Source: Deferribacteraceae bacterium
GTDB lineage: Bacteria; Chrysiogenota; Deferribacteres; Deferribacterales; JAISNW01
NCBI GenBank assembly: GCA_031256375.1
Contig: JAIRQX010000025.1
Coordinates: 1 to 61,156 of the forward strand
Reading direction: 5' to 3'
DNA length: 61,156 bases
Position numbers and translations under genes: made by a program. Position 1 is the first letter of the stretch; each line of letters begins with the position of its first letter. A model generated the notes under the pieces. The model was not told the origin of the DNA. It worked only from the letters and a program-made list of their open reading frames with translations, and ran no database searches. Below, piece by piece: positions 18,934 to 21,049 of the stretch.

Positions 18934-18962
18934 TTGACAACTCTCTGCGTGTCTTTTAAAAT
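18934..18962 (+). promoter_or_regulatory. Consensus sigma-70 promoter of the trpB2 leader
   Basis: A perfect TTGACA (18934-18939), 17-base spacer and TAAAAT (18957-18962). The predicted start site near 18969 falls directly before the leader-peptide ATG at 18970. Confidence 0.8.
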
Positions 18963-18969
18963 GCGACTT

Positions 18970-19059
18970 ATGAATAGGAATGTGTTTAGATCATCTTATA
19001 ATAACTGTTCATCCGCATCTGTATGGCGCCGCTTTTGGTGGGCGCTTGCCGCCCTATAA
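18970..19059 (+). CDS. trpL: Trp-rich leader peptide upstream of trpB2
   Basis: A 29-codon reading frame begins at 18970, just after a consensus promoter, and ends 83 bases before trpB2. It carries three Trp codons close together near its end (VWRRFWWALAAL; codons 19, 23 and 24), flanked by Arg and Phe. Tryptophan is the rarest residue, so WxxxWW in a leader peptide just ahead of a tryptophan synthase gene is a strong sign of ribosome-mediated attenuation. No Shine-Dalgarno precedes its ATG and the predicted transcript starts at or next to it, so the peptide may be read from a leaderless or near-leaderless start. A longer in-frame start at 18877 is upstream of the promoter and unlikely. Confidence 0.75.
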   Translation: MNRNVFRSSYNNCSSASVWRRFWWALAAL

Positions 19060-19113
19060 TATCGTAACCGGAGCTGTTGCTCCCCTATTAATGAAAATTG
19101 ATAATTTTTTATC
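19025..19113 (+). promoter_or_regulatory. Candidate trp attenuator with alternative stems
   Basis: Two stems that exclude each other overlap the Trp codons: GCGCC (19026-19030) with GGCGC (19041-19045), or GGGCG (19040-19044) with CGCCC (19050-19054). A third stem, GGAGC/GCTCC (19070-19083), follows, then an A/T hairpin AAAATT-GAT-AATTTT with a T run (19094-19110). A strong GC-stem plus U-tract terminator is not obvious, so control could also act on translation of trpB2. Confidence 0.5.
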
Positions 19114-19142
19114 GTAATTGCCAATAAAAAGGAGAATTTTAT

Positions 19143-20495
19143 ATGTCACGCATTTACCTTGACCCAAAAGATATGCCAAAAAGCTGGTATAATATAATGG
19201 CTGATCTGCCGTTTAAAATGGACCCTTATATTAACCCCGCTACAATGAAACCCCTTCAGCCGGACGATATGTCAGCCATATTTCCCCCTGCGCTCATTGA
19301 GCAGGAGATTTCCGTTAAACGAGAGATAGCTATCCCTACTGATGTGCTGGATATGCTGTCTTTATGGAGACCGACTCCGCTTCTGCGCGCCCGCAACCTT
19401 GAGAAAGCGCTCGGCACCCCTGCAAAAATATTTTACAAATATGAAGGCACCGCGCCGGCGGGCAGTCATAAAGCCAACACCGCCGTTGCGCAAGTTTATT
19501 ACAACAAGATAGCGGGGATAAAACAACTGACCACCGAAACCGGAGCTGGGCAGTGGGGCAGCTCAGTTGCCTACGCGGCGAAACATTTCGGGCTTGGATG
19601 CACAATTTACATGGTAAAGGTGAGTTTTACACAAAAACCGTACCGCAGTTCATTTATGCGGATGTTCGGGGCAAACGTCATACCTAGTCCGTCAAACACT
19701 ACCCAAGCCGGACGCGATGTGCTCGCCGTTGACCCTGATACACCCGGAAGCCTAGGTACAGCAATAGGCGAAGCTGTGGAAGCGGCAATTCAAAATAAAG
19801 ATACAAATTATACACTGGGAAGTGTGCTTAACCATGTTCTCCTGCACCAAACCGTTATCGGGCTGGAAGCGCAGAAACAGATGGAATCAGTAGGCGAATA
19901 CCCCGATACAGTCATAGCCTGCGCCGGAGGCGGTTCTAACTTTGGCGGCATAGCGTTCCCTTTTCTGCGGGATAAGATTAACGGGAAAGAGCTGCGAGCC
20001 ATCGCGGTGGAACCGGCAAGCTGCCCCACTCTTACCAAAGGGAAATATACTTATGACTACGGCGATACAGCGAGTCTTACCCCGATAATGAAGATGTACA
20101 CGCTGGGGAAAGATTTTACCCCTCCCGCAATCCACGCGGGCGGGCTCCGTTTCCACGGGATGTCTCCGGCAGTGAGCGCGCTTATGAAAAATGGTCTCAT
20201 TGAGGCAGAGATCGCTCATCAGTCCGATATATTCAAATACGGTATGATGTTTGCGCATACGGAAGGGATTGTGCCCGCTCCGGAATCGTGCCACGCCATA
20301 AGCTCCGTATGCAGAAAAGCTCTGGAGTGTATAGAAAAAGGCAAGACGGAAACAATCCTGTTTAATCTGTCAGGAAATGGCTTTTTTGATTTTCCCGCTT
20401 ACGATGCTTATGTTGACGGCAAACTGACTGATTACGAATATTCAGAAGAAGATGTTGCAAAATCTATGGCAAACCTTCCGAAAGTAAACAAATAG
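19143..20495 (+). CDS. trpB: Tryptophan synthase beta chain, TrpB2 type
   Basis: Makes tryptophan from indole and serine with pyridoxal phosphate. The 450-residue length and the N-terminal extension (YLDPKDMPKSWYNIMADLPF) mark the TrpB2 class, longer than TrpB1 (about 400). The PLP lysine lies in GSHKANTA at about residue 110; TETGAGQWGSS follows near 131-141, and the phosphate-binding CAGGGSNFGG is present. No trpA is adjacent, as is common for TrpB2, which may salvage indole. AGGAG at 19130-19134 precedes the ATG, and the Trp-rich leader ahead indicates feedback by charged tRNA-Trp. queH overlaps its stop codon (TAGTG). Confidence 0.95.
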   Translation: MSRIYLDPKDMPKSWYNIMADLPFKMDPYINPATMKPLQPDDMSAIFPPALIEQEISVKREIAIPTDVLDMLSLWRPTPLLRARNLEKALGTPAKIFYKYEGTAPAGSHKANTAVAQVYYNKIAGIKQLTTETGAGQWGSSVAYAAKHFGLGCTIYMVKVSFTQKPYRSSFMRMFGANVIPSPSNTTQAGRDVLAVDPDTPGSLGTAIGEAVEAAIQNKDTNYTLGSVLNHVLLHQTVIGLEAQKQMESVGEYPDTVIACAGGGSNFGGIAFPFLRDKINGKELRAIAVEPASCPTLTKGKYTYDYGDTASLTPIMKMYTLGKDFTPPAIHAGGLRFHGMSPAVSALMKNGLIEAEIAHQSDIFKYGMMFAHTEGIVPAPESCHAISSVCRKALECIEKGKTETILFNLSGNGFFDFPAYDAYVDGKLTDYEYSEEDVAKSMANLPKVNK

Positions 20496-21049
20496 TGCGG
20501 ATATTGCTGCATCAGTGCTGCGCCCCCTGCTCTGTTTACCCGCTGGACAGACTACTGTCTGAGTACGGAACGGACAGGGTGCGCGGTTATTTTTATAACC
20601 CTAATATCCATCCGTACAGCGAATATAAAAAACGCCTTGATGCGGTTATTGAATATAACAACCGCCTGAAGATAGATTATGTTATTGAAAACAGTTACGG
20701 TCTGCGTGAATTTATCAGGATGGAGGCGGAAACTGATAACAGGTGCAAAGAGTGTTACTGCATAAGGCTTGAAAAAACAGTGAAATATGCTGCCACAGAA
20801 GGTTTTGAAGCGTTCACCACCACACTTTTATACAGCCGCAGACAGAAGCATGATCTTATACGCGCCGCATGCGAAGAAACAGCGCAAAAATATAAACTGC
20901 GTTTCTTATATGAGGATTACCGTACAGGCTGGCAAACGGGGATTGATATCTCCAAAAAACTCAGTATGTACCGGCAGCAGTACTGCGGGTGCATATTCAG
21001 TGAAGAGGAGCGCTATAATCCTATATCTAAGGCAGTTCGTATACGGTAA
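20495..21049 (+). CDS. queH: Epoxyqueuosine reductase QueH
   Basis: Catalyses the last step of queuosine tRNA modification, reducing epoxyqueuosine with an iron-sulfur cluster; it replaces QueG in many bacteria. The 184-residue product has the family start LLHQCCAPCSVYPLD (Cys 8, 9 and 12), RCKECYCIRLEKT and the end motif YCGCIFSEEERY. The start is a GTG overlapping the trpB2 stop, so translation is probably coupled. The tail overlaps the convergent gene at 21027 by 23 bases. Confidence 0.94.
   Translation: MRILLHQCCAPCSVYPLDRLLSEYGTDRVRGYFYNPNIHPYSEYKKRLDAVIEYNNRLKIDYVIENSYGLREFIRMEAETDNRCKECYCIRLEKTVKYAATEGFEAFTTTLLYSRRQKHDLIRAACEETAQKYKLRFLYEDYRTGWQTGIDISKKLSMYRQQYCGCIFSEEERYNPISKAVRIR

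Follow-up and report, generated by a model that had tools for sequence, protein, structure and literature searches.

In the enteric trpL attenuator, the control of a Trp-biosynthetic gene lies in a short frame whose Trp codons cluster toward the end, with a stem starting at these codons. In the alphaproteobacterium Sinorhizobium meliloti, the trpL RNA, which encodes peTrpL, begins with the ATG of the leader frame, making the product a leaderless leader peptide (PMC7298713). PMC9031893, citing Canestrari 2020, describes leaderless polycysteine short frames in mycobacteria that tune downstream genes by the speed of elongation. In Corynebacterium diphtheriae, attenuators have been placed before both trpB1EDGC and trpB2A (PMC1262725). 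A 2010 survey found amino acid leader peptides only in Proteobacteria and Actinobacteria, besides its own cases in Firmicutes (PMC2965389), and our search of the non-subscription literature turned up nothing on leader peptides of Deferribacteres.

Here we describe a Trp-codon leader frame upstream of trpB2 in a 61,156-nucleotide stretch (the window) of the genome of a Deferribacteraceae bacterium (1.95 Mb, 128 contigs, 95.6% complete; hereinafter G000). It shares with enteric trpL the short frame, the terminal cluster of Trp codons, the stem starting at them, and the Trp-biosynthetic target; unlike trpL, it has no terminator or antiterminator that we could find, its target is trpB2-queH, and its leader lacks a Shine-Dalgarno sequence. 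The predicted leaderless start recalls S. meliloti, where, in contrast, a classical terminator-type attenuator precedes trpE(G). The mycobacterial frames are likewise leaderless short frames with runs of one codon (a predicted likeness on the side of the window) but sense cysteine, are actinobacterial, and have other targets. In C. diphtheriae, too, a Trp leader is predicted at the head of an operon (trpB2A) with a gene called trpB2, which need not be of the TIGR01415 class, but this operon includes trpA and possesses a GC-rich terminator. Taking the evidence below together, we consider it quite probable that the Trp-codon leader peptide couples trpB2-queH expression to the level of charged tRNA-Trp and that it descends from a trp operon leader.

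The leader frame and its promoter

The leader is preceded on the forward strand by a sigma-70-type promoter (18934 to 18962), whose TTGACA box (18934 to 18939) and TAAAAT box (18957 to 18962), separated by a 17-nucleotide spacer, match the consensus at 11 of 12 positions; an earlier note on this DNA had called it perfect, and it is strong rather than perfect. No better placed −10 box is found 0 to 30 nucleotides from the leader ATG, and none of 200 shuffles matched the promoter. The leader frame itself (18970 to 19059), predicted from the sequence, a shuffle test, and homologous leaders in relatives, begins with an ATG 7 nucleotides downstream of the −10 box, without a Shine-Dalgarno sequence, and extends for 29 codons (MNRNVFRSSYNNCSSASVWRRFWWALAAL) to a TAA stop codon at 19057 to 19059, its C-terminal end reading VWRRFWWALAAL. 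Codons 19, 23, and 24 specify Trp and constitute the putative regulatory WxxxWW cluster (19024 to 19041). Two hairpins follow: hairpin I (GGGCG-CTTGC-CGCCC, 19040 to 19054, −8.6 kcal/mol), whose 5′ end falls inside the last Trp codon, and hairpin II (GGAGC-TGTT-GCTCC, 19070 to 19083, −8.8 kcal/mol). Farther downstream are a weak A+T-rich stem (19096 to 19119) and the Shine-Dalgarno sequence of trpB2 (AAGGAG, 19129 to 19134).

Such a frame is rare. Among 5,000 dinucleotide-preserving shuffles, only 0.02% yielded a leader-like frame at the promoter, defined as one that starts no more than 12 nucleotides from the −10 box and whose final 12 codons contain three or more for Trp, two of them adjacent (WW). 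WxxxWW codons occur at 10 sites in the 1.95-Mb genome, and only the site in the window is placed as a leader, close to the stop of a short frame that follows a promoter; none of the seven other sites with WWW codons in G000 is a leader. The frame is thus more than a product of chance, and the arrangement described earlier, a 29-codon WxxxWW frame directly behind a promoter and upstream of trpB2, is borne out by the sequence and the shuffle test.

Counterparts at the trp operons of relatives

Across about 30 genomes of the phylum, a Trp leader is absent from all trpB2 orthologues, leaving G000 as the only genome with a leader before this gene. Almost every trp operon of the order does carry a Trp leader, with WWW before trpE in most, and many of these WWW leaders are followed by GC-rich stems with U-tracts; upstream of trpE in L152 to L178, there are often two successive GC-rich terminator-like stems. 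In family f6, two genomes possess leaders before trpE, SQSWRVLWWRFNA in G039 and SQSWSFHWWRFNA in G045, with the same WxxxWW spacing as in the window; the Trp codons are kept and the flanking residues changed. In these two, the second stem before trpE, a few nucleotides upstream of the Shine-Dalgarno sequence, pairs despite two double changes (GCGT/ACGC versus ACGC/GCGT), a compensation which argues that downstream structure is likely to matter in the G039/G045 branch.

Within the family of the window itself, G002 has MSITLVSTYNLNSIQSWQFWA before trpD, with TTGACA-17-TACCTT 6 nucleotides upstream of the ATG. This leader is followed by TGGGCG-TAGC-CGCCC, which is hairpin I of the window with a different loop, and contains a GAGC..GCTC counterpart of hairpin II. 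The best local alignment between the G000 and G002 leaders brings the final Trp codon and hairpin I of the one into register with those of the other; the alignment is weak by itself, with 5% of shuffles reaching its score. The pattern TGGGCG-N4/5-CGCCC is found at just two places in each of the two genomes, one of which in each is at the Trp leader, and this rarity, along with the register, adds weight to their probable kinship beyond the alignment. Hence, matching leaders at the trp operons of relatives support the earlier proposal of a Trp-codon leader controlling trpB2. The earlier note had also suggested aligning the leader across related genomes and had held that relatives lacking the Trp codons would speak against it; the trp operon leaders of the lineage keep these codons while their flanks change, whereas the roughly 30 trpB2 orthologues lack the leader. 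We propose that the leader probably descends from the trp operon leader of the lineage and reached trpB2 while the rest of the operon was lost.

Other arrangements are seen around these genes. In G002, contig 80 contains trpDCFBA with its own Trp leader (L036, 2085 to 6339) and no trpE or trpG in front; a TrpE domain was not found in this genome (87% complete), which may need anthranilate. Two further genomes of the window's family, G003 and G004, have T-box leaders upstream of trpE on the reverse strand (L150, 2116 to 2377; L151, 2143 to 2404) with E values of 1e-18 and 1e-16, just under the Rfam gathering score. The presence of T-boxes and leader peptides within one family suggests that the lineage changes its Trp sensor readily. 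For the window, a T-box (RF00230) or riboswitch was considered and set aside, with no Rfam match there and none in L001 at an E value of ≤5. Six trpB2 loci (L003, L007, L008, L009, L010, and L016) possess the palindrome GTTAA-N7-TTAAC about 35 nucleotides before the gene, between promoter and start, which is possibly an operator for some regulator.

A predicted leaderless start

The proximity of the leader ATG to the predicted +1, without a Shine-Dalgarno sequence, had been remarked upon earlier and recurs across the order: in all 26 leaders, the ATG lies 5 to 8 nucleotides after the best −10 box, with ties resolved toward 7. When 21 leaders were tested without this tie rule, the 5- to 8-nucleotide spacing outscored every other in 18 and shared the top score in 3, and the mean promoter score at this spacing was 9.9 of 12 versus 6.2 in shuffles. 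AGGA strings upstream of the leaders are few and all lie inside the −10 region. Given this spacing, we predict that the leader AUG stands at the 5′ end of the transcript across the whole set. Together, these leader frames from across the order, all predicted to be leaderless, offer material on how a 5′-AUG start couples translation to polymerase.

The trpB2-queH unit and tryptophan metabolism

The gene behind the leader, trpB2 (19143 to 20495, forward strand), encodes a 450-amino-acid TrpB-like pyridoxal phosphate enzyme which exceeds the curated cutoffs of both NF009057 (711 bits) and TIGR01415 (634 bits) and whose closest solved structures are tryptophan synthase beta chains. It is followed on the same strand by queH (20495 to 21049; PF02677, 196 bits), coding for epoxyqueuosine reductase, the start of which overlaps the trpB2 stop codon by one base; hence, the controlled unit would be trpB2-queH. 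The two genes overlap or lie close together in most genomes of the order, an adjacency that would tie Trp salvage to queuosine.

Family searches in G000 recovered a single TrpB-like gene and no trpE (N-terminal domain), trpC, trpA, or trpB1. As the trp genes form one operon in relatives, one gap in the assembly would suffice to conceal the whole set, but at 95.6% completeness the loss of the operon is likely. Since these four genes were not found, trpB2 is probably the only Trp gene of G000 and acts by indole salvage. The earlier description of a lone trpB2 accordingly stands as regards Trp genes but not as regards the transcription unit, which is shared with queH. TrpB2 enzymes have a high affinity for indole and use O-phospho-l-serine as a substrate (PMC11917138). 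The salvage role proposed earlier is supported, with some reservation, by these absences and by the presence in G000 of a tryptophanase-family gene, a candidate tryptophanase or tyrosine phenol-lyase that falls below the equivalog cutoffs of both. Taken with the leader, these findings suggest that leader-peptide Trp sensing has persisted though the pathway shrank to one salvage enzyme, a sign that TrpB2 serves to supply Trp.

Likewise, trpB2 is the only trp gene found in four genomes of a different f6 genus (L031 to L034); its 5′ region has no Trp codons and contains, after the promoter and about 60 to 100 nucleotides before the gene, an inverted repeat (e.g., TTACCTG-N8-CAGGTAA). Several f6 genomes (L134 to L140), mostly lacking trpA or a clear trpC, have a lone trpB1 that closely follows another gene and has no Trp leader; this is likely to be another indole salvage design.

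Proposed mechanism and alternatives

The Trp sensor, which comprises the promoter, leader frame, Trp codons, and adjacent hairpin, is well supported by the sequence and by relatives. The spacing of the promoter suggests that the transcript would start at or beside the leader AUG and be read leaderless. When Trp is short, a ribosome would stall at W19 or W23/W24 and cover hairpin I; because this hairpin begins in the last Trp codon, a waiting ribosome would prevent its formation. When Trp is ample, the ribosome would reach the stop codon and depart, allowing hairpin I to form. The difference between the stalled and free states would then alter the amount or the translation of the trpB2-queH mRNA, with noncanonical termination, Rho, pausing, and translation as candidate output steps. 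We read the locus as ribosome-mediated Trp attenuation in a variant form, leaderless and without a terminator, which has moved to trpB2. In its full form, this reading posits a 5′-terminal-AUG Trp leader, with neither a terminator nor a stem hiding the Shine-Dalgarno sequence, that acts as a sensor of ribosome position with a new output and was transferred from the trp operon to trpB2 during operon loss. We hold this full form to be less likely than not. Against Trp-dependent control by the leader as such stand the lack of a terminator, of excess structure, and of a modeled Shine-Dalgarno switch, the restriction of the leader before trpB2 to G000, and the weakness of the G000-G002 alignment taken by itself.

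These structural results bear on the alternatives as well. The stems noted earlier are present, as hairpins I and II and the weak A+T-rich stem, and the 5′ arm of hairpin I could instead pair with the 3′ arm of hairpin II (−8.4 kcal/mol). Compared with shuffled sequence, the entire leader shows no excess folding (z = −0.47). One possibility is translational attenuation, in which the position of the ribosome would determine whether structures in the leader mask the ribosome-binding site of trpB2 or leave it accessible. The absence of a terminator, the compensated stem just upstream of the Shine-Dalgarno sequence in G039 and G045, and the potential of the CTCC of hairpin II to pair with the GGAG of the Shine-Dalgarno sequence are all in keeping with it. 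In constrained folding, with the modeled ribosome on any of the Trp codons or on the stop codon, however, the unpaired probability of the trpB2 Shine-Dalgarno sequence is almost unchanged (0.68 when free versus 0.73 to 0.76 when stalled), and the same test gives no consistent change in G039 and G045. Control at the level of translation, as the earlier note had suggested, is not borne out by this model, and we regard it as rather unlikely.

A classical transcription attenuator, in which stalling decides between antiterminator and intrinsic terminator, as is the case for Escherichia coli trp and most trpE leaders of the order, would accord with the GC-rich stems and U-tracts of the order-wide WWW trpE leaders and with hairpin I, which occupies the position of their 1:2 stem. 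Yet no intrinsic terminator was found on the forward strand between 19060 and 19142, in agreement with the earlier remark that a strong GC-rich terminator with a U-tract was lacking; the 3′ arm of hairpin I has no visible downstream partner, the window leader has no 3:4 stem of the trpL type, and the leaders of G002, G039, and G045 are also devoid of a clear GC-rich stem next to a U-tract. A classical attenuator is hence improbable here. It is slightly harder still to credit that the leader merely survives from the lost trp operon, with its promoter still driving trpB2 but no regulation left: the rest of the operon was indeed not found in G000 and an output structure is missing, but the frame, its three Trp codons, the spacing of its start, and hairpin I have been preserved without damage, and drift would erode them. 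A chance frame with no regulatory role would fit the lack of a leader at the trpB2 genes of the phylum's other genomes but is highly improbable in the face of a shuffle frequency of about 2e-4 and the matching leaders at the trp operons of close relatives.

Probable tryptophan-dependent control of trpB2 in other phyla

The present findings add the Deferribacterales to the groups with amino acid leader peptides, and trpB2 loci of other phyla show comparable features. Under a strict criterion (at least three Trp codons, including WW, within 400 nucleotides), 5 of 79 such loci pass, compared with an average of 0.05 in each shuffled set and with 0 to 1 in control stretches. Of these five, L116 is probably spurious, since it falls within an upstream gene. 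Among the cases added by a looser scan, a Neomarinimicrobiota genome has WWWW and a Calditrichota genome has WSWYWWWR upstream of trpB2. Strong terminators accompany both of these leaders and that of a Bacteroidales trpB2, and no TrpA above the cutoff was found in the Neomarinimicrobiota, Calditrichota, and Bacteroidales genomes, the completeness of which is not given. T-boxes precede trpB2 at three further loci (L079, L097, and L104). From these Trp leaders and T-boxes, Trp-dependent control of trpB2 seems to have arisen repeatedly. Trp-rich leader frames upstream of trpB2 in other phyla were observed at L051, L100, L106, L045, L055, and L066.
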